A stretch of 64,000 nt of DNA from Gemmatimonas aurantiaca T-27 (GCF_000010305.1 NC_012489.1:1178001-1242000), one strand, 5' to 3'; numbered from the stretch's first letter, positions 22,851 to 34,372 are shown. Notes: a model not told the origin generated them from the letters alone. Made by a program: numbers and translations.

Positions 22851-23752
22851 AGACGCCACGGGATGGGCGTGAGGGCTTGTTGCAGCGCACGCACAAAGGC
22901 CGTCGTGCGCGCGCTGCGTCCTTTGCGTGGGCCAATGAGTGCCACGACCGGCGCATCGGGCAGGGCATAGCCGTCGAGCAGTCGCACCAGACGACCGGTG
23001 TGCAGGTCGTCGGCGACGCTCCACTCCGACCGCACGATGATGCCTTCACCGCTCAGCGCCCAGGCCCGGACGACGTCGCCATCATTGCTCGCCAGTACGG
23101 GTTCGATGCGAACCTGCGTGGCCGGTGTGCCCCGTCGAGCAAATCGCCAGAGCGTGACATCCTCGTCATTCTCGCGCAGTGCGATGCAGCGATGGACGAG
23201 CAGATCACGAGGCACCTCCGGTATCCCGTGACGCTGCAGATAGTCGGGCGCGGCGCACAACACGCGGTCATTGGCCGCGAGAGGACGCGTGACAAACGAC
23301 GACTCGGGCATTTCCCCGATGTGCACCGCGACATCCCATGAATGATCGGTCGCTTTGCCGCGTCGATCCGACAGCATGAGATCAATCGTGACCGCCGGAT
23401 GCGCACGCTGAAACGTCGCCACCACCGGCGCGATGTAGGCCCGCCCGAATCCGAACGGCGCCACCACCCGCAAGTGGCCCGCCACGGCGCCTCCGCGCGC
23501 CGACAGCGTTTCCGTCAGCTCAGCGATCTCGTCGGCCAGGATGCGACCGCGCGAGGCCAGCAGCTCCCCTTCATCGGTGAGTGCGATATGTCGTCCGCTG
23601 CGATCGACCAGCCGAACGCCCAGTCGTCGCTCGAGTTCCTGCAGGCGTTGCGTGACCGCCGATGGCGTGACGTCGAGCTCACGCGCTGCGGCCGCCAGGG
23701 ACGGCGATCGGGCCACCGTGCTGAAGAAGTCGAGGTCCGCCGTGGTGAGCAT
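22847..23752 (-). CDS. LysR-family transcriptional regulator
   Basis: A 301-residue LysR regulator of normal length. The N-terminal winged helix-turn-helix is clear: LDFFSTVARSPSLAAAARELDVTPSAVTQRLQ, then the linker helix LERRLGVRLVDRSGRHIALTDEG. The C-terminal effector-binding domain begins near GHLRVVAPFGFGRAYIAPV, similar to the CrgA/DsdC-like subgroup. The ATG at 23752 is the conserved start. LysR genes often control the divergent neighbour, here the P450-like gene, with about 80 bp shared; the effector is unknown. Confidence 0.95.
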   Translation of the reverse strand: MLTTADLDFFSTVARSPSLAAAARELDVTPSAVTQRLQELERRLGVRLVDRSGRHIALTDEGELLASRGRILADEIAELTETLSARGGAVAGHLRVVAPFGFGRAYIAPVVATFQRAHPAVTIDLMLSDRRGKATDHSWDVAVHIGEMPESSFVTRPLAANDRVLCAAPDYLQRHGIPEVPRDLLVHRCIALRENDEDVTLWRFARRGTPATQVRIEPVLASNDGDVVRAWALSGEGIIVRSEWSVADDLHTGRLVRLLDGYALPDAPVVALIGPRKGRSARTTAFVRALQQALTPIPWRL

Positions 23753-23831
23753 TCAGTTCAATCTACACGATCCGGCGACAATCGTTACTCGGGAGCTTCA
23801 TGGAATTGACGGTTCGGCAAGGCTATGTTGG

Positions 23832-24977
23832 GTGACCGTCGCTGCCTCGCTACCTCTGGGATGGGGTTCAAAATCTCTTGCCGATGAAGACCGACGTTTG
23901 GGGCGCGCGTTGGCGCGGCGCACACTGATTCCGCCGAGCGACGGGGCTGAGCGGCCGCAGTCCGTGGGGCTGGCTCCGCACTTCAGTGCGTCGCAGCAGG
24001 CCTGGATCGTGCACCGACCTGAGGACATCCGCGCAGTGTTGCGAGATGGTCGGTTCGGTCAACTCGGTGCGCCCGTGCGTGGTGAGGCTTCGAACGCTGA
24101 TGCGTCCAACCAGCCGGCGCTCGCCGAACAACCGCAGCGGTGGTGGATATCGCCTGAGAGTGCTGCGCTGCTTCGGCCGGATGCGCGGTCGATGGAAGGG
24201 TTTGTCCGGCAGCTCCGACATCTGATTTCCATTCAGACCGATCGCACGCCTCCGAACGTGCCGACAACCGTGGATCTCATGGCGACGATCATCCGCCCAT
24301 GGTGCCATCATGTGACGGCAGTGTTGTTGGATCTGCCGATCGCGGTGGTGAACGAGGCGGAACCGCTGACCCGGCAGGTCTTCGAAAGCGCGGCACTCGT
24401 GATGCCGGCGGAGGATGCGGTGTCCTCCGTGTCTGATGCCGCCGGAGCGACGCAGGCGTTGTCGGATCGATTGGCGCCGTATCGCTCCGCGCAGCGTCCC
24501 GGTGATGGGCTCGACATTCAGGCTTGGGTCGCACTCACCCAATCCTTGCCGGCACTGATCGGGGCTGGAGCACGGCGACTGGTGGCGCCTGATACGACGA
24601 ACACCTGCCCATTCGCCGGGTCGGAGACAGGGATGGCCCGGGCCATCAACGACGCGTTGCTGGCGGCGGCGTCGCCCGTGCGTGCTCTGTTCCGCACGGC
24701 CCTGCAGCCCGCCACCATTGCGGATACCGTCATCGTGCCGGGCGATCGTGTCATGCTGATGGTCGAAGGCCATGCCGAATTGGTGTTCGGTGACGGCCCG
24801 CACCGCTGTGCAGGGGCCACTCTGGTCCGCGCGCTCTTTGGGGCCGCTCTGCGGGTGCTCGGAGACGCGCCCATCACGGGGCTCGCCGATCCGGCGCCTG
24901 GGCGTGCCGTCTGGGTCGATGGGGCGGCCCTGCGGGTGCTGCGGTCACTTTCCGTGGAAATGCACCGGCCGTTGTAA
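23832..24977 (+). CDS. Degenerate cytochrome P450-like protein
   Basis: About 381 residues. The heme-ligand loop VFGDGPHRCAGATLVRAL (Cys near residue 326) matches the P450 signature FGxGxHxCxGxxLA, and IVHRPEDIRAVLRDGRF near the N-terminus fits the start of a class I P450. Other hallmarks are missing: no I-helix AGxx(T/S), the K-helix ExxR is replaced by INDALL, and only about 8 residues separate GDRVMLM from the heme loop, where normal P450s have about 30 including the meander. It is therefore a shortened, probably non-monooxygenase relative or a decaying gene, though no frameshift is visible. The start is uncertain: GTG at 23832 is the best of several weak candidates. Divergent from LysR. 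Confidence 0.6.
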   Translation: MTVAASLPLGWGSKSLADEDRRLGRALARRTLIPPSDGAERPQSVGLAPHFSASQQAWIVHRPEDIRAVLRDGRFGQLGAPVRGEASNADASNQPALAEQPQRWWISPESAALLRPDARSMEGFVRQLRHLISIQTDRTPPNVPTTVDLMATIIRPWCHHVTAVLLDLPIAVVNEAEPLTRQVFESAALVMPAEDAVSSVSDAAGATQALSDRLAPYRSAQRPGDGLDIQAWVALTQSLPALIGAGARRLVAPDTTNTCPFAGSETGMARAINDALLAAASPVRALFRTALQPATIADTVIVPGDRVMLMVEGHAELVFGDGPHRCAGATLVRALFGAALRVLGDAPITGLADPAPGRAVWVDGAALRVLRSLSVEMHRPL

Positions 24978-24978
24978 G

Positions 24979-25107
24979 GCACTTGTAAGGCAAAACCCGA
25001 CCTTCGGCTATCAAGCCTGGCGAATCAATCCCGACACTGAAGTGAGTGAGCAGTAGGCTGGCGCCGATGTCAGCACCGGTATCGCGAGGCGATACCTACT
25101 CTTTTTG
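24979..25107 (+). promoter_or_regulatory. Candidate riboswitch/attenuator leader (c-di-GMP-I-like)
   Basis: Between the P450-like stop and the first fibre-subunit gene lies a folded leader. CACTT (24980-24984) pairs with AAGTG (25040-25044) and encloses AAGGCAAAACC, a CCGA-ccT-TCGG hairpin, and CTATCAAGCC. This order resembles the c-di-GMP-I (GEMM) aptamer, where CAC..AGGGCAAACC, a hairpin and ACGCAAAGCC follow each other, but with UAUCAAGCC in the third block. Then GCTG/CAGC (25057-25074) and AGTAGG (25052-25057), which could pair with CCTACT (25095-25100) in competition with the terminator at 25078-25107. The ribosome-binding site follows at once, so a terminator here must control the downstream genes. 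Ligand assignment is inference. Confidence 0.45.
25078..25107 (+). terminator. Intrinsic terminator in the fibre-operon leader
   Basis: GGTATCGC (25078-25085), a 3-nt loop GAG, and GCGATACC (25089-25096) make a perfect 8-bp stem, followed by TACTCTTTTTG. It ends only 31 bp before the first start codon, leaving no room for a separate downstream promoter beside the ribosome-binding site, so it is more likely an attenuator than a simple end of the P450-like transcript. Confidence 0.8.
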
Positions 25108-25137: not shown

Positions 25138-25683
25138 ATGTCGCTGTACCCTTCGTACCCGCAGTCGGGGCTTCGTGTGTTCCGGCTGTCTGCAGAATTG
25201 ATCATTGCGGTGGCCTTGTTGCTGTTGATGTTCGATGCGCCCCGTCTGGAGGCGCAGACGGCGGCCAGTGCCAATGTCACGGCGTCGGTGTCGCAGCCGT
25301 TGTCGGTCAGTGCCACCAATGGCCTGGGGTTTGGCGCGCTCTTTCCGGGCAACGCCAAGACGGTGGCGGTGACGGATGCCGCTGCGGCGGCGTTTGCCAT
25401 CTCGGGTGCCGCCAGTGGCAACGTCAGCATGACGTTCAGCATTCCGAACACCATTACGAGCGGTGGCAATTCGCTCAGTGTCGACACGTGGACGGCACGT
25501 CGCAACACGTCGAACAGCGCGAGTGCGGGCACGGATTTCACGCCCAGCGCGTCGGCGACCCAGGCTGTGCTCAGTGGCTCGGGTAACCTGTATGTGTTTG
25601 TCGGTGCCACCGCACATCCCGGTGCCTCGCAGGCCGCCGGTGCCTACACCGGTACACTGACACTCACCGTTGTGTACTTCTGA
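25138..25683 (+). CDS. DUF4402 fibre-subunit-like exported protein
   Basis: A 181-residue exported protein. The ATG at 25138 follows a perfect GGAGG site (25129-25133). The long signal peptide (SAELIIAVALLLLMFDAPRLEAQ) ends near AQT. The mature part is a Gly/Ala/Ser/Thr-rich beta protein: TASVSQPLSVSATNGLGFGALFPG opens a DUF4402 domain and AAGAYTGTLTLTVVYF closes it. This closing strand, ending with an aromatic residue at the very C-terminus, is the pattern seen in chaperone-dependent pilins. There are no cysteines in the mature part. As first gene of the operon, behind an attenuator and followed by an intercistronic hairpin, it is likely the major subunit. The subunit role is inference from context. 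Confidence 0.8.
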   Translation: MSLYPSYPQSGLRVFRLSAELIIAVALLLLMFDAPRLEAQTAASANVTASVSQPLSVSATNGLGFGALFPGNAKTVAVTDAAAAAFAISGAASGNVSMTFSIPNTITSGGNSLSVDTWTARRNTSNSASAGTDFTPSASATQAVLSGSGNLYVFVGATAHPGASQAAGAYTGTLTLTVVYF

Positions 25684-25712
25684 CAATGATCAGGGCATTG
25701 AATGATCGCGGT

Positions 25713-25726
25713 CACACCAATGTGTG
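25713..25726 (+). other. Intercistronic hairpin after the major subunit gene
   Basis: CACAC (25713-25717), loop CAAT, GTGTG (25722-25726), lying 9 nt before an AGGAG ribosome-binding site. Small hairpins between a major pilin and its chaperone gene are often RNA-stability or processing sites that keep subunit output high; here the role is a guess from position. Confidence 0.35.
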
Positions 25727-25754
25727 GCACGCACAGGAGTGGATCCATGAAACA

Positions 25755-26588
25755 ATGCGATGGGTGCGGATTGCAGCGGGTGTGGTCGCCTTGGCGGCCA
25801 CACCGCTGTCCGCGCAGTCAGTACTGATCGCTCCCACGGCGATCATCATCGATGCCAATCGGCCGTCCACCGCGATCACGCTGGTGAATACCGGGACGGC
25901 GCCGGCGGAAGTCTCACTGACGTTCACGTTCGGACTGCCGGCGACAGACAGCGCCGGCAATATGCATATCAAGCTGGATGACGCACCTGCCGACAGTTTG
26001 CCGTCGGCGGTGGATTTTGTGCATGCGTACCCGGCGCGTCTGGTGCTGCCGGCTGGTGGACGCCAGGTCGTGCGTCTGGTGGCCGCTCCACAGCGCAAAC
26101 TCGAAGCCCGTGAATACTGGGCACGCCTGATCGTCACGAGTCGTCAGGGGCGTCCCTTGTCGTTGGCGGCCGCGGATGCACCGTCCGAGGCGCAGGTGGC
26201 GCTCGACCTCGAAGTGCGCTCGGTCCTGGCGGTCTTCTATCGCCCTGCAGGCGTATCCACGGCGCTCGATATGGCGAAGCCGGAAGCGCGCCTGGCCAAC
26301 GGCCAGATCGAGACCCGCGTGCGTCTGTCACGTGGCGGCAATGCCGCGTTTGTCGGATCGGTGTCCGCCGTGCTGCGCGACAGTGTGGGACGCGTGTATG
26401 GCAAGAAGGACATGCCGCTTGGGGTGTACTACGATCTCGAGCCACTCATCTCGTTGGGGCTCGCGTTGGTACCCAAGGGCACGTATGAGCTGGAGCTTTC
26501 CGCACGCGCGGAACGCCCGGATGTGCCAGACAACATGTTGCTGCCGGCGAAAGTGGTGAAGCAACGCACCATCGTTGTGGTGCCCTGA
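25755..26588 (+). CDS. PapD-like periplasmic fibre chaperone
   Basis: A 277-residue exported protein. After a signal peptide (MRWVRIAAGVVALAATPLSAQ) comes a PapD-like Ig domain: VLIAPTAIIIDANRPSTAITLVNTG, YPARLVLPAGGRQVVRLVAAP, then YWARLIVTSR. A second beta domain follows, ending KVVKQRTIVVV. Periplasmic chaperones donate a strand to pilin subunits and hand them to the usher. The start is unclear: the ATG at 25755 gives a normal signal peptide but lies 15 nt from AGGAG (25735-25739), which is well placed for an out-of-frame ATG at 25747 that stops after 25 codons; an ATG at 25686 is a longer in-frame option. The stop overlaps the next ATG (TGATG). Confidence 0.8.
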   Translation: MRWVRIAAGVVALAATPLSAQSVLIAPTAIIIDANRPSTAITLVNTGTAPAEVSLTFTFGLPATDSAGNMHIKLDDAPADSLPSAVDFVHAYPARLVLPAGGRQVVRLVAAPQRKLEAREYWARLIVTSRQGRPLSLAAADAPSEAQVALDLEVRSVLAVFYRPAGVSTALDMAKPEARLANGQIETRVRLSRGGNAAFVGSVSAVLRDSVGRVYGKKDMPLGVYYDLEPLISLGLALVPKGTYELELSARAERPDVPDNMLLPAKVVKQRTIVVVP

Positions 26589-27091
26589 TGCTCGGGTTGC
26601 GGCGCTGGCGCTGTGGAGTTCCTCGCGGGCTGACCCTGATCACCAGCGTGCTGCTGCTGCTCGGGGCCACGCGCGTTGCGTCTGCGCAGACGACCGTGAC
26701 TGCCCTGACGGGGCTGAGTTTCGGCACGATCATCAGTGGCACCACCACGACCATCGCCTCGAGCTCTCCTTCGGCGATGTCGTTCCGCATTCGTGCGAAC
26801 GTGGGGCTCAGCCTGGGCATGTCGTTCACATTGCCCACGACACTCACCCGCGTCGGCGGGGGTGGCACGATGCCGGTGTCGTTTTGCAGCACCTGCGCGT
26901 TGTATCGGGTCAACAGTGCCAATCCTGCCGGAGCTCTGCCGTTCAATCCGAATGTGGGGCTATTGGGTTTGCTGCTCTTGGTGTCGTCCGATGTGTATGT
27001 CTGGGTAGGCGCATCGACGTCGCCGCCACTCAATCAGCCCGCGGGCAACTATACGGGGACGGTGGTGCTCACCATCGCCGCGATCCTCTGA
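26588..27091 (+). CDS. Second DUF4402-like fibre subunit
   Basis: A 167-residue exported protein with a signal peptide (LTLITSVLLLLGATRVASAQ). The mature part repeats the subunit pattern: TTVTALTGLSFGTIISGTT at the N-terminus and PAGNYTGTVVLTIAAIL at the end, as in the first subunit's AGAYTGTLTLTVVYF. Two differences: a CSTC pair near residue 100 that could form a disulfide, and a hydrophobic stretch (GLLGLLLLVSSDVYVWVG) before the last strands. This may be a minor or tip subunit; that is inferred from being a second copy placed between chaperone and usher. The ATG at 26588 overlaps the chaperone stop by 1 bp. Confidence 0.75.
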   Translation: MLGLRRWRCGVPRGLTLITSVLLLLGATRVASAQTTVTALTGLSFGTIISGTTTTIASSSPSAMSFRIRANVGLSLGMSFTLPTTLTRVGGGGTMPVSFCSTCALYRVNSANPAGALPFNPNVGLLGLLLLVSSDVYVWVGASTSPPLNQPAGNYTGTVVLTIAAIL

Positions 27092-27098
27092 GACCGAC

Positions 27099-30056
27099 GT
27101 GCGGACCGTGCATAGGACGGGCATCACGCGGCAGGTGACGTTGGTGCTCGGTGGCATGAGCCTCGCGCTGGCCATGGCATCCCATTCGGTGGGCGCACAG
27201 TCTGTCGATGCGCTGCTCGGCGCGCCGGCTGTGGTGTCTGCCGATGCGATCGCACGTGGGCGGTACTTCGAGATCGCCCTCGAGCTCAACATCGACAACG
27301 TCTATCGCGCGACGGTCCTGGCCCATCAGCAACTCGATGGCATCATTCTGCTGGACGCGCGCGACATTCTCGCGCATGCCGGATGGCGTCGCACGCCACC
27401 GGGCGCGGCCGTGCGCGTGAAGCCACATGCCGGGGAGTCTCACACGACACTCTGCCGGTCCGTCGCCAATCGGCGAGAGCCGAGTTGTTTCGTGCCGGCG
27501 GCGACCCTCGCTGCGGCGCTCGATGTCATCCTGGAAGTGGATCTCGCGTCGGCCGTGGTGGTGATTCGCGAGGCCGCGCACCTGCCCGTGGTGCGTCGTG
27601 CCCGGTTGCTGCGTGAGAGCCGCATCGCTGCCGCGCCCGATCGATCGGCCGCCGAAACGGCGCGCCGGCAGGCCGAGGCAGAACGACGGCGCATCGCCGA
27701 CAGTGTGTTCGTGTTGTCCACGTTGCCGATCACCGTGGACGCCACACCGCCCATGCTGTTGCCACGCGCTGTGGGCGGCACACTCGGTGTGGTGCAACTC
27801 GACTACCTGTTGTCGGCCCAGCACGGTATTTCACGCAGCCGGTCCGTGTCCGGCGACGCGTTGCCGGGCGCATGGCAATTCGGGGCGCTGATGCGCGCCT
27901 CGACACATCTGGCCGGTGGTGATCTTGGCACCGATCTGCGGCGAGATTTCACGGGCACGAAACTGGACAACACCACGTGGACATTCCGTCCACGTCCCGG
28001 CAGCACCCGCCCGATTGTGCATGTGGGCGTCGTGGACGATGCGAGTCCACAACCGGTGCGCCTGGATGGGGTGATGTTTGGACGGCCCATCCGTGAGAAC
28101 TATCGGCCACGCATGGTCTCCATCGCGACGGCGGCGCGACCGGAATGGAACTATGTCGGCCTCGTGAACGATCAGTTGATCAACATGCAGCGCCTCGCCG
28201 ATACCAGCATGGCGATGACCATTCCCGTGACAGGTGATGCGGTTCGCTACGATGTCATCGGCTGGGGCGCCGATGGTCTCGAGCGGCGGTATTCCCGTAT
28301 GGTGCATTCGCCGGCCGCTCAATTGCCTCGTGGTGATGTGCGCTATCTCGCATCGGTGGGTCGATGCACAGCCGCGATCACGTTGTTTGTCGCCGACAGT
28401 GCGCCGTGTCGCTGGCGCGCGGCCACGGACTGGCGGGTGGGGCTGCATCCACGCTTCACAGGTCGGGCCGGCGCCACGTGGACCGACGGACAATGGCAAC
28501 CTTATGTGGGCGCGAATGCCTTGGTGGGTTCGGCGATTGTTCTCGAGGCACTCTTCGGCGCACCGCGTCCTGGCGAGACCTTGTCACAATGGCAGGCCAC
28601 CTGGAATCCGACTCCCTGGCATCTCCTCACCGTGAGTGGCAGCCGGTCGCTCGGACGTTCACTGCATTCGGCGCAGTGGCAGGTCGGCGTGCCCGCAATC
28701 AAGCGCCTGTCGTTGATGGGCATGTGGAATCGCGCGGCGGGACTGTCCGATCAGATGGATCTTGGGCATATCGGGCTGGTGGGGCAGGTCGGTGCGTTCC
28801 GTACCGAGGTCTTCGGCCGCCTGAACCGGATGCGGCTCGGCACCTCGGTGCGCATGCCGCCAATCTCGATGGCCTGGGACGCGGAGACGCAGTCACCCTC
28901 GACGACGACCGCGTCGATGTTGCTCCGCGCCTCGTCCATCAGCGCGCCAACGGGTTCGCTGGTGACGATGGGTTCGTCGAATGTGAATACCATGACGGTA
29001 CAATCGACGGGCATCGATGTGAGCGCTGCTCCACGATGGATGTCGATGCGTGGAGCGCCGTGGTGGATTCGGGGTTCGTTGGCGCTGGATGAACGGCAGA
29101 GCGGCACGACCAGCCAGGGCCGCACCATGCGGCTCGATCTGCGGCTCAATGGTTCGTTGCCACGCGCCGAAATCGAGATCGGACGGACGTTTTCCCAGGC
29201 GCAGCGGACGGGTCGATGGATGTTGATGATCTCGCCGCGACTACCGCAGACACGTCTGACGACATCGGCTTCGCACAATACGGCCGTGGGCAATATCGAC
29301 GGCCGGCCCTGGATCGAACGGGTCTCGACGGTGACGCAGATGGCGACGGGATCGGTTCTGCTCAATGCTCGTGAACAGAGTGTGCGAGCCACCGCCGACC
29401 GTGCGGTGCGCGGTGGCGGGTTGCGCATACGCGTCTATCTCGATCTCGACAACAACGGACGCTACGACTCGTCGGAGCCCGTGTTGCGGCAGGTGGGTGT
29501 GGTGGCGGGCAATCGCCGCGCCAGCACGGATGTCGAAGGCCGGGCGGAGATCATCGGCTTGCCGGCGAGTGAGCCGGTGATTGTGAGTGTCGACTCCACC
29601 TCGTTGCCGTTGCCGTGCTGGCGACCGATCTCGCAGCAGTGGGTGGTACAGGTGCCATCGGCCGGCATCGGTGAGATCGATCTCGGACTGCGGTATGGAG
29701 CCATCCTCGATGGGCGGCTCATTGCCGACGCGTCCACCGCACCGGGCGCCGCGTCGCCTCCGGTGTTGCCGTCTCGTTTGATCCTCACGCATCTCGAACG
29801 GAACGAGCGCTTCGAAGTGGATGTGATGAATGACGGAGGGTTCTACCTGCTTGGCTTGCCCGCGGGGCCCTACCGTGTACTGCGCCGGGATGCGCCGAGT
29901 GGTGGCCTCGCCTCGTCAGGTCGTCCGTCCGGGGGGGACACCTTGGTGATTCCCGCCCCACCGGCGGGGCTCGCGGCGCCATCGACGTGTCACGTCGTCA
30001 CGACACAACTGCCTCTTGCGTCGGTTACTCTCGCGCCGGCCCGTTCCGCGCCATAG
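27099..30056 (+). CDS. Divergent usher-like outer-membrane protein
   Basis: A 985-residue exported protein that starts (GTG at 27099) 7 bp after the minor subunit gene. Seen: an N-terminal signal (about 1-34), a mixed domain (about 35-200) with two Cys (LCRSVANRREPSCF) and a charged helix (AETARRQAEAERRRIAD), a long beta-rich middle (about 220-760) of alternating strands and short turns consistent with a barrel, and C-terminal beta-sandwich modules: YLDLDNNGRYDSSEPVLRQV near 778, where D/N spacing resembles the calcium-like loop of SdrD/usher C-terminal domains, and a last one near 900. The operon context (subunit, chaperone, subunit, large outer-membrane protein) makes an usher the best reading, but I see no clean match to the FimD family motifs; it may be of the CFA/alternate-usher type or a separate lineage. 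Confidence 0.65.
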   Translation: MRTVHRTGITRQVTLVLGGMSLALAMASHSVGAQSVDALLGAPAVVSADAIARGRYFEIALELNIDNVYRATVLAHQQLDGIILLDARDILAHAGWRRTPPGAAVRVKPHAGESHTTLCRSVANRREPSCFVPAATLAAALDVILEVDLASAVVVIREAAHLPVVRRARLLRESRIAAAPDRSAAETARRQAEAERRRIADSVFVLSTLPITVDATPPMLLPRAVGGTLGVVQLDYLLSAQHGISRSRSVSGDALPGAWQFGALMRASTHLAGGDLGTDLRRDFTGTKLDNTTWTFRPRPGSTRPIVHVGVVDDASPQPVRLDGVMFGRPIRENYRPRMVSIATAARPEWNYVGLVNDQLINMQRLADTSMAMTIPVTGDAVRYDVIGWGADGLERRYSRMVHSPAAQLPRGDVRYLASVGRCTAAITLFVADSAPCRWRAATDWRVGLHPRFTGRAGATWTDGQWQPYVGANALVGSAIVLEALFGAPRPGETLSQWQATWNPTPWHLLTVSGSRSLGRSLHSAQWQVGVPAIKRLSLMGMWNRAAGLSDQMDLGHIGLVGQVGAFRTEVFGRLNRMRLGTSVRMPPISMAWDAETQSPSTTTASMLLRASSISAPTGSLVTMGSSNVNTMTVQSTGIDVSAAPRWMSMRGAPWWIRGSLALDERQSGTTSQGRTMRLDLRLNGSLPRAEIEIGRTFSQAQRTGRWMLMISPRLPQTRLTTSASHNTAVGNIDGRPWIERVSTVTQMATGSVLLNAREQSVRATADRAVRGGGLRIRVYLDLDNNGRYDSSEPVLRQVGVVAGNRRASTDVEGRAEIIGLPASEPVIVSVDSTSLPLPCWRPISQQWVVQVPSAGIGEIDLGLRYGAILDGRLIADASTAPGAASPPVLPSRLILTHLERNERFEVDVMNDGGFYLLGLPAGPYRVLRRDAPSGGLASSGRPSGGDTLVIPAPPAGLAAPSTCHVVTTQLPLASVTLAPARSAP

Positions 30057-30118
30057 AGTATCGATAGGGAAGGTATTGGGGTTGTCAGCCCCGTGTCGTC
30101 CAGTGCGTGAGGTGCAGA

Positions 30119-32365
30119 ATGAAGCGGTTGCTTGCCCTGATGGGTGTGGAAGAATTGGTGGAGTTGCGATTGCGTCACCTCCACCGGGTTGCATTGCTCT
30201 CGCTGGGGATCGTGGCAACGATCACCATCTTTGGCGGTCTGGCACTCGAACGGGCCACTGGCTGGGTGCATCACACCCGCGAAGTGATGCGCCTCGTGCG
30301 TTCACTGCAGGCGGAGCTGTTTGCGCACGAGACCATTGCGCTCCGGGGTTCGGAGAGGATCGTGGAGCGTACGGCCGTGGAGCGTCCCTCGGCGGAACTC
30401 GCCACTGCGGAACTCGCCACTGCGGAACTCGCGGCTACGGAACTGGCTGCTGCGGCTTTGCCGCTGAGCACCGAGCTCCTGACCGTGATGGATTCCCTGT
30501 TGGTGCTGACCAAGGACAATCCTGCGCAATTCCGTCGCGCCGCGTTGCTGACGGCGTCGGTTCATCGGTGGAATGATGGTGTGCGGACTATTGCCCGCGA
30601 AGGCAGTGCGGTCGCGGCTTTGGAGGCCAAGCTGCTTCTGCAGCAGGCCCTGCAGGAATTTCAGAGCGAAGAACATCGCCTCTACGAAGCGCGGACGACC
30701 GTCGAGCGCCGCTGGCGATTGGCTCTGTTGGCAACGATTCTCGTTTCCCTGGTGGTGATCTGGTATGCACTCAATCGTTTCGTGCGCACCATGGTGCGCG
30801 AAACCCGCGATGCACGGGAAGCCAAGGCGTTGCGCGACCGGACGGCAGAGCGGCTCACGGTCTTGATGGACATTTCACCGAATCCCTTCGCCATTGTGGG
30901 ATTGGACGATGCGTTGGTGCTGGTGAACACGGCGTGGCACCGGCTCGAATCGGCGAACCCTGCGAGTGATGGCCTCTTCGGTCGACTGGATCCGTCGTTC
31001 ATCACCCCGTTGCGGCAGATCGTCGATCAGGCACGTGCGACTCACCAGACCCAGCGCATCGAGCTGACCGATCCTGCGGTGATCGAGGACGTCTCCGGTG
31101 TGCGCACGCCGCGCGTGTGGACGGCCACCGGCTACCGGGTGGACCAGGGGGCCGATCTGGAAGGCGCCGTCTGTGTCACCCTGGTGGATGTCACATCGAT
31201 TCGAGCCATCGAGCAGCAGATGCGGCAGGCGCAACGCCTCGAATCCATCGGACGCCTGGCGGGTGGTGTGGCGCACGATTTCAACAACATCCTCACGGCC
31301 GTCATTGGTTTCACGGATATGGCGGCCGCAGAAGCTGGCGAGAGCGGGCGTCTGCAGGCGGATCTCCACCAAGTGCGAAGAGCTGCGGATCGTGCGTCCG
31401 TGCTCACTCGACAACTGCTGTCGTTCAGTCGTCAGCAGGTGTTGCATCCCAGGGTGCATAGCCTGGGTGACATTGTGCGCGACCTCGAGCTGATGATCCG
31501 GCGATTGATCGGCTCACACATCACCGTTGCCGTGCGCATTGCACCGGACACCGGTCATGTGTTGGTCGACCTCGGGCGGATTGAGCAGGTGATCCTCAAT
31601 CTGACCATCAATGCCCGTGATGCGATGGGTGCGGGTGGTTCGCTCACGGTGGAAGTGGGCAACGCGACCCCCGAAGACCTCGCGGCGGCGCATGAACGCG
31701 GAGATATCCCCGCCGAGGCGATGAATGGTTCTTACACGCTCTTGCGGGTGCGCGACACCGGGACGGGCATGACGCCGGAGGTGCAGCGGCGCATCTTCGA
31801 GCCGTTCTTCACGACCAAACCGGTTGGGCAAGGTACCGGCCTTGGATTGGCTACCGTGCTCAATGTGGTGCGTGAATCGAGTGGATTCATCGGCCTGGAG
31901 AGCGCTCCCGACTGGGGTACGACGTTCGAGCTCTTCTTGCCACGAACGACGGAGGCGCTGTCCGTCGCCGTCCCCACGATGGCGGTGCATCAACTGCAGC
32001 GGCAGAGTGGTACGGTGTTGGTGGTCGAAGATGATCGCGACGTGCGTCAGCTAACGGAGTACGTGCTGAGCGAAGCTGGCTACACGGTGCATGTCGCCAG
32101 AAATGGCGTTGATGCACTGGAGGTGTTGCGGCGGAAGGGTCCGGAGATCGACCTGCTTGTCACCGATCTCGTCATGCCCGGACTCGGCGGGGTGGATCTC
32201 GCCCGGCATGATCTGGTGGCGGCACGGAAGCTGCCCGTTCTGTTTCTCACCGGGTACGCCACGGACGCCACGGTGAACATGACGGTGCTGCCATCCGAGG
32301 CCCATGTCCTCGCCAAGCCATTTACTCCCGCCCAATTGGTGGAAGACGTCCTGTCCGCGTTGTAG
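30119..32365 (+). CDS. Hybrid sensor histidine kinase (PAS) with receiver domain
   Basis: A 748-residue membrane kinase. Order: membrane helix (about 25-43), periplasmic helical sensor (about 44-195) containing a four-fold pentapeptide repeat, second helix (about 200-218), PAS-like domain (VLMDISPNPFAIVGLDDALVLVN), HisKA with GVAHDFNNILTAVIGF (His near 386), HATPase with NLTINARDAM, DTGTGM and GQGTGLGLATV, and a receiver with VVEDDRD, phospho-acceptor in VTDLVMPG and AKPF. The HDFNN form is typical of NtrB-like hybrid kinases. The ATG at 30119 has GAGG upstream; it lies 62 bp after the usher-like gene on the same strand, so it may be co-transcribed and could control or sense fibre assembly (inference). 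It converges on an OmpR-type regulator. Confidence 0.92.
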   Translation: MKRLLALMGVEELVELRLRHLHRVALLSLGIVATITIFGGLALERATGWVHHTREVMRLVRSLQAELFAHETIALRGSERIVERTAVERPSAELATAELATAELAATELAAAALPLSTELLTVMDSLLVLTKDNPAQFRRAALLTASVHRWNDGVRTIAREGSAVAALEAKLLLQQALQEFQSEEHRLYEARTTVERRWRLALLATILVSLVVIWYALNRFVRTMVRETRDAREAKALRDRTAERLTVLMDISPNPFAIVGLDDALVLVNTAWHRLESANPASDGLFGRLDPSFITPLRQIVDQARATHQTQRIELTDPAVIEDVSGVRTPRVWTATGYRVDQGADLEGAVCVTLVDVTSIRAIEQQMRQAQRLESIGRLAGGVAHDFNNILTAVIGFTDMAAAEAGESGRLQADLHQVRRAADRASVLTRQLLSFSRQQVLHPRVHSLGDIVRDLELMIRRLIGSHITVAVRIAPDTGHVLVDLGRIEQVILNLTINARDAMGAGGSLTVEVGNATPEDLAAAHERGDIPAEAMNGSYTLLRVRDTGTGMTPEVQRRIFEPFFTTKPVGQGTGLGLATVLNVVRESSGFIGLESAPDWGTTFELFLPRTTEALSVAVPTMAVHQLQRQSGTVLVVEDDRDVRQLTEYVLSEAGYTVHVARNGVDALEVLRRKGPEIDLLVTDLVMPGLGGVDLARHDLVAARKLPVLFLTGYATDATVNMTVLPSEAHVLAKPFTPAQLVEDVLSAL
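30392..30451 (+). repeat. Four-copy 15-bp in-frame tandem repeat
   Basis: Units start at 30392, 30407, 30422 and 30437; the first two are identical (GCGGAACTCGCCACT), the others differ at 3-5 positions. They encode a repeat of Ala-Glu-Leu-Ala-Thr type in the periplasmic sensor of the hybrid kinase. The 15-bp unit keeps the reading frame, so copy-number changes would lengthen or shorten the sensor helix without breaking the gene. Confidence 0.85.
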
Positions 32366-32382
32366 GGGCGCCCGCGATGGCC

Positions 32383-33057
32383 TCAGTGCGAGGTGATCTG
32401 TACACCGACGTTGCGCACGCTCACGATGGTGGACTGCGCGGATACCGACGACACCTTTTGCCGGATACGTGAAAGGGCCACGTCGAGCACACTGGTACCC
32501 GGATCGAAGTCATACCCCCACACGTCGGCCAGCAGGGTGGCACGAGCCACCACTTCACCCGGGCGGCCCATGAGTGTGGCGAGCAATTGGAACTCCTTCG
32601 CTGTCAACTGCACTTCGCCGTTGGTGCCAGCCAGTTTGCGGGACTGTCGGTCGAGCCGCAGGTCACCAACCGTCAGCCGATCCGGCATGGTATGACGTCG
32701 CAACACGGCCGCGATCCGGGCGCGCAGCACGGATGCGGACACGGGTTTGTGCATGAAGTCGTCCGCACCTGCCATCAGCCCATTCACGACCGCATCGTCG
32801 TCGCTGTAGCCGGAGAGCATGAGAATGGCGGCGTCGGGTACGGTCTTCCGCAATGACTGTACCGCCTCGGTGCCCAATCCATCCGGCAACTCAAAATCGA
32901 CGATGGCCACCTGGATCGGCGTGCGATGGATCATCAGCAGTGCTTCGCGCACGGATGCTGCCACGTGCACATGCCAGCCGTCTTCCCGGAGCAATCGCGC
33001 GATCCACGCGACCACTGCGGGATCGTCGTCAACCACCAGCGCCTCCATTAGCTCCAT
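32383..33057 (-). CDS. OmpR-family response regulator
   Basis: A 224-residue regulator, the normal length. Receiver domain: LVVDDDPAVVAWIARLL with acidic pocket, phospho-acceptor Asp in AIVDFELPDG, Thr/Ser switch in MLSGYSDDD and Lys in HKPVS. C-terminal winged helix: LTAKEFQLLATLMGRPGEVVARATLL and the recognition region SVLDVALSRIRQKV. The start at 33057 has GAGG upstream at good spacing; an in-frame ATG at 33081 would add 8 residues. It converges on the hybrid kinase (17 bp between the stops) and is divergent from the ATPase gene. Whether that kinase is its partner is not shown; hybrid kinases usually need a phosphotransferase intermediate. Confidence 0.92.
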   Translation of the reverse strand: MELMEALVVDDDPAVVAWIARLLREDGWHVHVAASVREALLMIHRTPIQVAIVDFELPDGLGTEAVQSLRKTVPDAAILMLSGYSDDDAVVNGLMAGADDFMHKPVSASVLRARIAAVLRRHTMPDRLTVGDLRLDRQSRKLAGTNGEVQLTAKEFQLLATLMGRPGEVVARATLLADVWGYDFDPGTSVLDVALSRIRQKVSSVSAQSTIVSVRNVGVQITSH

Positions 33058-33211
33058 CGACAGGCCTCGGCGAATGGACATACGATTGGATTGCGAGAGC
33101 GCGGCATTGAAAACCTGACTCCCCCTTCCAAGCAACGGGCTGGTCTTTGCTCTCGCAAGTATCGCCGTTCCATGTATCCAGTAGACTGACGAGATCGCCA
33201 TATTTCCCGTT

Positions 33212-34372
33212 ATGATCGAGACGATCGCCATCAGCGGGTACCGCTCTCTGCGCGATGTGCGCCTCGCGCTGAGTCCACTCACCGTGGTGACCGGCGCCAA
33301 CGGCACCGGCAAGTCGAGTGTCTATCGCGCGCTGCGATTGATGACACAGATCGCGCACGGACGCCTGATCAGTTCCCTCGCTGCCGAAGGCGGTCTGACG
33401 TCCACGCTCTGGGCAGGCCCCGAATCGATCGGGGCGGCCGTGAAGCGTGGAGACTTTCCGGTCCAAGGCACGCGGCGAACGCACCCCGTGTCGCTCAAGC
33501 TGGGGTTCGCTGGGGAGGACTATGGGTACGCCATCGATATTGGCCTGCCAAAGCCGAGCTTGTCATTGTTCGCTCGGGATCCGGAGATCAAGGCCGAGGC
33601 GATGTGGTTCGGTCTCCGGCCCGGTCGGCACAATGTGATTGCCGAACGGACGGGCCCCAGCGTGCGGGTGCGGAATCGCGAAAATGAGTGGGGGCAGGCG
33701 CTCACCTCGCTGGCGTCGTGGGACAGCATGATGACACATGCCGGCGACCCGCGCGAAAGCTCGGAACTCATCGTGTTGCGCGATGCCATGCGCGACTGGC
33801 GTTTCTACGATCATTTCGATTGTGGCGCGGAGGCGCCGGCGCGGCGGGCGCAGATCGGTACCCGCACACCGGTACTCGCGTCGGATGGCCGTGACCTCGC
33901 CGCCGCCATCGAAACGATCCGGGAGCTCGGAGATCAGGAGGCGCTCAACGCGGCCGTCGATGATGCGTTCCCAGGGGCTTCTCTCGAAGTATCCACACGG
34001 TCCGGCTATTTCGAGTTGACCATGCATCAGCATGGGTTGCTTCGCCCACTGGGCATGGCCGAGCTCTCCGATGGCACGTTGCGCTTTCTGCTGTTGGCGG
34101 CGGCGCTGTTGTCACCGCGTCCTCCTGCGCTGATGGTGCTGAACGAACCGGAGACCAGCCTGCACGGGGACCTCCTGCCTGCCCTCGCCCGATTGATCGC
34201 CCGGGCGGCCACGCGCAGCCAGTTGATCGTCGTCTCGCATGCCCCCTCGCTGATTCAGGCGCTCGAGGAGCAGGGTGATTGCCGGCGGATCACCCTGGCC
34301 AAGTCTTTTGGTGAGACCGGGGTTGAGGGCGATGACGAGGGGGAGCCGGCCTGGAGTTGGCCCAGTCGCTGA
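33212..34372 (+). CDS. AAA ATPase of the OLD/RecF-like type (AAA_21)
   Basis: A 386-residue soluble ATPase. Walker A is VTGANGTGKSSVYRAL (about 27-42) after the typical IAISGYRSLRDVRL entry strand. The C-terminal half has the ABC-type signature region (MAELSDGTLRFLLLAAALL), Walker B as LMVLNEPETSLHGDLLP and the switch His in LIVVSHAPSLIQAL. This matches the single-chain ABC/SMC-like ATPases of COG4637 and OLD relatives. There is no TOPRIM nuclease domain and no nuclease gene beside it, so a defence role cannot be claimed. The ATG at 33212 starts the conserved strand directly. Divergent from the response regulator; 128 bp before the carbonic anhydrase gene. Confidence 0.88.
   Translation: MIETIAISGYRSLRDVRLALSPLTVVTGANGTGKSSVYRALRLMTQIAHGRLISSLAAEGGLTSTLWAGPESIGAAVKRGDFPVQGTRRTHPVSLKLGFAGEDYGYAIDIGLPKPSLSLFARDPEIKAEAMWFGLRPGRHNVIAERTGPSVRVRNRENEWGQALTSLASWDSMMTHAGDPRESSELIVLRDAMRDWRFYDHFDCGAEAPARRAQIGTRTPVLASDGRDLAAAIETIRELGDQEALNAAVDDAFPGASLEVSTRSGYFELTMHQHGLLRPLGMAELSDGTLRFLLLAAALLSPRPPALMVLNEPETSLHGDLLPALARLIARAATRSQLIVVSHAPSLIQALEEQGDCRRITLAKSFGETGVEGDDEGEPAWSWPSR

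Follow-up and report, generated by a model that had tools for sequence, protein, structure and literature searches.

The 64,000-nucleotide stretch analysed here (the window, from Gemmatimonas aurantiaca T-27, NC_012489.1:1178001-1242000) holds at positions 25138-30056 of the plus strand a run of four genes, read as open reading frames in the order subunit S1, PapD-like chaperone, subunit S2 and a 985-residue outer-membrane protein. With a probability of about 0.9, this run in a soil bacterium is an operon for fibre assembly by the chaperone-usher route and belongs to a distinct branch, so far without a name, whose nearest relative is the archaic (Csu) pathway; it would encode a complete machine for making hair-like surface fibres. 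The gene set, the conserved operon, the usher fold, the pilin fold, the family relations and the two classes of subunits were computed directly. The open reading frames were found in the order and at the coordinates given by a first-pass annotation made from the sequence alone, and its naming of DUF4402-like subunits and a PapD-like chaperone was borne out by Pfam scores above the cut-offs of 25.2 bits for DUF4402 (PF14352) and 23 bits for PapD_N (PF00345):

25138-25683, plus strand: S1, DUF4402 pilin, 181 amino acids, PF14352 with 36 bits, GGAGG ribosome site ahead of the ATG
25686-26588, plus strand: chaperone open reading frame, 300 amino acids, PF00345 with 28.8 bits, probable start at 25755
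26588-27091, plus strand: S2, DUF4402 pilin, 167 amino acids, PF14352 with 28.4 bits
27099-30056, plus strand: usher-type large protein, 985 amino acids, GTG start, predicted assembly pore

Read directly from the DNA, the stop codon of the chaperone overlaps the start codon of S2 (TGATG) and 7 bp separate S2 from the usher gene. Judged from the sequence, translation of the chaperone probably begins at an in-frame ATG at 25755, not at the opening of the frame at 25686, because the signal peptide then comes first, as in the homologues; the gap between S1 and the chaperone would thus be 71 bp. In the whole genome, the usher homologue, the PapD_N match above cut-off and both DUF4402 genes are confined to this locus. 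Searches with family profiles recognised PapD and DUF4402; the Usher profile matched neither the 985-residue protein, which had zero Pfam matches, nor anything else in the genome, and NCBIfam gave nothing above cut-off for the proteins of the locus.

The large protein had been called usher-like for its position, its size and a D/N-rich C-terminal beta module, with a non-barrel fold named as the outcome that would speak against it; a barrel with a plug was predicted instead. The AlphaFold2 model from a 39-row alignment (mean predicted local distance difference test, pLDDT, 75; predicted template modelling score 0.68) contains, by DSSP, six barrel strands (residues 231-328), a six-stranded insert (338-403), eighteen further barrel strands (414-756) and then two beta domains. 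The modelled strand order is that of the classical usher plan, a 24-stranded barrel with the plug after strand 6:

27267-27569, plus strand: usher N-terminal domain, residues 57-157, from model segments, colinear in hhalign with the N-terminal region of archaic ushers, presumed to bind incoming chaperone-subunit complexes
27789-29366, plus strand: 24-stranded barrel, residues 231-756, 6 strands before and 18 after the plug, superposes on the FimD pore in the model
28110-28307, plus strand: plug domain, residues 338-403, after barrel strand 6, its counterpart in the alignment with archaic ushers being their conserved plug region
28365-28409, plus strand: Cys423/Cys437 pair, invariant in 39/39 aligned ushers, family hallmark and possible disulfide
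29412-30014, plus strand: C-terminal beta domains with the D/N-rich module, residues 772-972, predicted counterparts of the usher C-terminal domains

Among structures in the Protein Data Bank (PDB), Foldseek ranked FimD and PapC entries at positions 1-19 without exception, with E values down to 2e-27, followed by SdrD at 6e-7. VIA-align gave Z scores of 22.7-18.6 for FimD/PapC, 16.2 for the best non-usher barrel, and for the FimD pore a Z of 21.9 at a root mean square deviation (rmsd) of 3.7 over 367 residues. Profile-profile comparison by hhalign connected the DUF4402-type ushers (hereafter D4) to archaic ushers with 99.6% probability (E 1.6e-24) over 665 columns, colinear from the N-terminal through the C-terminal domain, so that the D/N-rich module fell opposite the archaic C-terminal domain. 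SdrD_B or CarboxypepD_reg matches cover these C-terminal domains in 33-35 of the 39 homologues. Simpler searches did not reveal this relation: the usher sequence had no matches among PDB sequences, its profile picked up nothing there but beta domains of the kind found in SdrD and NOMO, and a plain hmmsearch with the D4 profile failed to reach FimD, EcpC or the archaic usher of genome G068 at E values up to 100. PF00577, the Usher family, matched 5 of the 39 homologues weakly (best E 0.0014).

The family profile of the chaperone matched the archaic chaperones with 98.0% probability (E 2.7e-13, profile-profile). In non-classical chaperones an arginine in strand F1 and a tyrosine in strand D2 anchor the C-terminus of the subunit, replacing the classical Arg/Lys pair, and the invariant Arg and the D2 Tyr have been described for CsuC (PMC4654587). 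At positions aligned with the archaic ones, 35 of 41 family members keep the F1 arginine (Arg147 of the window chaperone) and 40 of 41 the D2 tyrosine (Tyr248), and the D1 proline is invariant (41/41). The residues of the window chaperone aligned with FimC Arg8 and Lys112 (PapD numbering), Ala52 and Ala182, are not basic; across the family the first position is mostly Ala, with Arg in 6 of 41 sequences, and the second is Pro, Ala, Gly, Ser or Thr. In proteobacterial members the F1 arginine is shifted by two residues towards the N-terminus, and the Arg8 position is mostly occupied by Arg. From its sequence, the window chaperone is PapD-like and of the non-classical type, the anchoring role of Arg147 and Tyr248 being taken from the work on CsuC (PMC4654587).

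The gene set recurs throughout the phylum. Among 395 Gemmatimonadota genomes, the usher protein as single query found homologues in 69, and a profile of 39 homologues in 118, of which about 77 by row count cover the pore or plug region; the remaining genomes match only the SdrD_B-like end and were not counted as ushers. The Pfam Usher profile exceeded its cut-off in a single genome of the 395, G068, with an archaic spore-coat-U operon (L118). At 58 usher loci in other genomes a chaperone was adjacent in 53, and chaperone and DUF4402 subunits stood in one run with the usher in 51; this grouping exceeds chance. Usher loci without the full set lie mostly on short contigs. The gene order varies: pilin-pilin-chaperone-usher occurs 18 times, pilin-pilin-chaperone-pilin-usher 15 times and the window order, pilin-chaperone-pilin-usher, 3 times. 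Outside the phylum, plasmids of Polaromonas, Sphingopyxis, Novosphingobium and Pseudoalteromonas (Alpha-, Beta- and Gammaproteobacteria) carry the same gene set. Public records mis-annotate these ushers; those on plasmids are entered as carboxypeptidase regulatory-like, SdrD B-like or hypothetical proteins. On a conjugative Polaromonas plasmid (L135:1099-8702) two IS6 transposases flank the DUF4402 fibre operon, in the manner of a mobile composite element.

Three genomes from the genus of the window genome, G289, G366 and G249, encode chaperone and usher in one open frame of 1156-1322 amino acids (L069:2331-5798, minus strand; L068:1044-4529, plus strand; and the 1322-residue frame of L121 on G249:C98), and none of the three has a strong chaperone match besides this frame. 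The fusions support a functional pairing of chaperone and usher; a chaperone-usher fusion is in itself unusual.

The position of the branch among the known clades was examined with profiles and trees. The D4 usher profile was nearest to the archaic ushers, followed by the classical (E 3e-10) and the alternate ones (71%, E 4e-5, against a profile from a small set, a single EcpC sequence having given no match); archaic and classical usher profiles match each other at 5e-53. The DUF4402 pilin profile matched spore-coat-U pilins (E 8.3e-13), a clear but distant relation, and no other pilin profile, and reversed-sequence controls in the profile-profile comparison gave no matches. In a tree of 51 ushers over 464 columns, the 29 D4 sequences split from the 22 archaic, alternate and classical ones with support 99/98. 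Approximately unbiased (AU) tests rejected a grouping of D4 with the archaic usher of G068 (p 0.0195) and, marginally, with a Sphingomonas usher (p 0.047); a grouping with all archaic ushers (p 0.40) or with a long-branched Leptolyngbya usher (p 0.21) was not rejected. The first-pass annotation had proposed a candidate new lineage. An unfamiliar, separate branch did emerge (99/98), while a fourth lineage was not established (AU p 0.40 for D4 with archaic). On these sequence comparisons the D4 branch appears distinct and nearest to the archaic one; it may be a fourth lineage or a sister or early offshoot of the archaic clade, since the AU test does not reject D4 as sister to archaic. The far-reaching version, a fourth primary lineage with DUF4402 pilins, widespread in Gemmatimonadota, plasmid-borne in Proteobacteria and in some Gemmatimonas relatives equipped with a covalently fused, self-loading chaperone-usher and no free chaperone pool, is put forward tentatively, at slightly below even odds.

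Compared with the archaic (sigma) Csu pili of Acinetobacter, the window locus shares the operon of subunit, chaperone and usher, the nearest profile for usher, chaperone and pilin, the aligned CsuC-type anchors (Arg and D2 Tyr) and a fold of S1 nearest to CsuA/B. It differs in several respects. Archaic pilins are spore-coat-U proteins with a conserved cysteine pair, whereas the window pilins belong to DUF4402 and have no spore-coat-U disulfide, S1 being free of cysteine; archaic ushers are recognised by PF00577, the window usher is not; the usher bears an SdrD_B-like C-terminal module and the predicted tip is a single domain without adhesin domain; and the ushers of the window type are set apart in the tree. 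The classical type 1 system (FimC/FimD) resembles the locus in its 24 strands, the plug after strand 6, the N- and C-terminal domains and the donor-strand-type pilin, but the match of the usher profiles is weak and the window chaperone has no basic equivalents of Arg8 and Lys112. The alternate (alpha) systems, EcpABCDE and CS1 type, share homology of the ushers at profile level and the non-classical chaperone group; their usher match is the weakest and their pilin profile unmatched, and no TcfC-like or CS1-type C-terminal usher domain was among the Pfam families listed for the 39 homologues (25 of 27, E up to 1).

Possibly, though in our judgement this is doubtful, the locus does not stand for a branch of its own: it would then be sister to, or derived from, the archaic (sigma, Csu-like) pathway, having evolved fast, dispensed with the disulfide of the pilins and acquired a C-terminal module resembling calcium loops. 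Archaic proteins are nearest for all three components, and neither D4 with the archaic ushers (AU p 0.40) nor D4 with Leptolyngbya (p 0.21) was rejected. Yet the free tree sets 29 of 29 D4 ushers apart (99/98), a union with core archaic ushers fails the AU test (p 0.0195 for G068, p 0.047 for Sphingomonas), and the archaic profile is far closer to the classical (5e-53) than to the D4 profile (1.6e-24).

The subunits suggest a polarity of the fibre. The AlphaFold2 model of S1, from an alignment whose rows excluded plasmid sequences, has pLDDT 85 and shows an immunoglobulin-like domain, most residues from about 56 on exceeding 90, preceded by a loose N-terminal extension:

25255-25302, plus strand: predicted donor strand of S1, formed by the N-terminal extension at residues 40-55, unstructured in the model

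The best structural matches of the model were chaperone-usher pilins, with CsuA/B at the top (Z 9.1, 113 residues, rmsd 3.0). Matches about as high as those of many pilins were also obtained with Thermus TTHA1873 and the cannula protein CanA of Pyrodictium, the latter with Z 8.7 over 136 residues. Both subunits end in the motif G.YtGt..lTv.Y, which aligns with the archaic end G.YtDT..vTv.Y. The C-terminal segments had been described as matching and donor-strand-like; they do match, whereas the second attribute was given up, since the motif is strand F, the edge bound by the chaperone. The predicted donor strand is the N-terminal extension, present in S1 and absent from S2: from the end of the signal peptide (A39-Q40 in S1) to the L.FG motif, S1 has 23 and S2 has 9 residues. 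The subunits of the family fall by this distance into two classes, about 22-30 and about 9-17 residues as read by eye off the alignment, and most operons hold both donor-strand-bearing and donor-strand-less pilins. What separates the classes is a single strand. S2, without N-terminal strand, can accept but not donate, which makes the tip its most likely place; the rod (major) subunit is probably S1. In the relatives L068, L069 and L070 a single protein contains a short-class domain followed by a long-class domain (L068:4424-5458; L069:1378-2484, minus strand; L070:8604-9653), the order that the donor-strand polarity predicts. Such a tandem DUF4402 protein may be a ready-made tip dimer.

By analogy with known systems, we infer donor-strand exchange, export and fibre formation with the tip and rod roles given above. 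S1 and S2 would reach the periplasm via Sec as immunoglobulin-like pilins missing their last strand. The chaperone would fill the groove of the subunit with a strand of its own, a presumed donor-strand interaction, while Arg147 and Tyr248 hold the C-terminus of the subunit. The complexes would dock at the N-terminal domain of the usher and then be transferred to its C-terminal domains. S2, an acceptor only, would start the fibre as tip, each copy of S1 would donate its N-terminal extension to the preceding subunit, building the rod, and the plug would swing aside to let the fibre exit via the barrel. An adhesive function can only be guessed at.

The system could also be of the chaperone-usher kind without forming visible pili, its product being short tips, a coat on the surface or a thin mesh resembling a capsule. 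The operon encodes just two pilins, both small, and lacks a separate adhesin domain, and Caf1-type classical systems build amorphous capsules by the same chemistry. S1, however, carries the full donor-strand architecture of polymer-forming subunits, and we consider such an end product rather unlikely, although the present results do not discriminate between end products. That no relation to ushers exists, the large protein being some other outer-membrane barrel with a carboxypeptidase-regulatory-like domain which stands beside a PapD-like chaperone by accident, as the public annotation of relatives reads and as the detection by Pfam of C-terminal domains only in most relatives might suggest, is strongly disfavoured and hardly credible in view of the usher fold with plug and its clear gap to other barrels, the colinear profile match from N- to C-terminal domain, the conserved operon and the natural chaperone-usher fusions.

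Several points weigh against a fibre operon of a distinct branch. The fibres are predicted by computation, and the mature N-termini were judged by eye from the A-x-A-Q pattern, without a signal-peptide program. The window usher itself matches no usher profile, and its branch in the tree is long and shared with a single close relative. It is present in only 5 of 24 sampled genomes of the same genus, so its local importance is uncertain.

A sigma-70-like promoter was searched for at the locus and none was found. Just upstream of S1, a terminator-like hairpin followed by a T-rich stretch (25078-25096) may serve as terminator of the preceding gene or have a role in the leader. The upstream open reading frame (23541-24977) contains FGDGPHRCAGA, resembling the haem site of cytochrome P450, without a match to the Pfam P450 profile, and is possibly divergent or decayed. 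Directly downstream (30107-33312) lie a hybrid histidine kinase with a receiver domain, recognised by Pfam, and a response-regulator-like open reading frame, both possible regulators.

The chaperone-usher pathway is best known from gut and urinary bacteria. Three families are distinguished, of which the classical and the alternate occur in Beta- and Gammaproteobacteria and the archaic in Alpha-, Beta-, Gamma- and Deltaproteobacteria, Cyanobacteria and Deinococcus-Thermus (PMC4654587). With this locus and those related to it, the range of the pathway comes to include Gemmatimonadota. In the literature searched, neither fimbriae of Gemmatimonas nor a further usher clade were described and DUF4402 was not mentioned; the branch is unnamed there and invisible to the Usher profile. 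The mechanism appears familiar, and the lineage, the role of DUF4402 and the fusions would be new as far as this literature shows. DUF4402, a Pfam family of no assigned function that includes both window subunits above cut-off, thereby gains a probable function as chaperone-usher pilin, and ushers missed by current profiles are revealed. The divergence of the branch provides a test of which features of usher and chaperone are essential, and the fusions in the relatives allow a direct test of whether the pathway can do without a pool of free chaperone.

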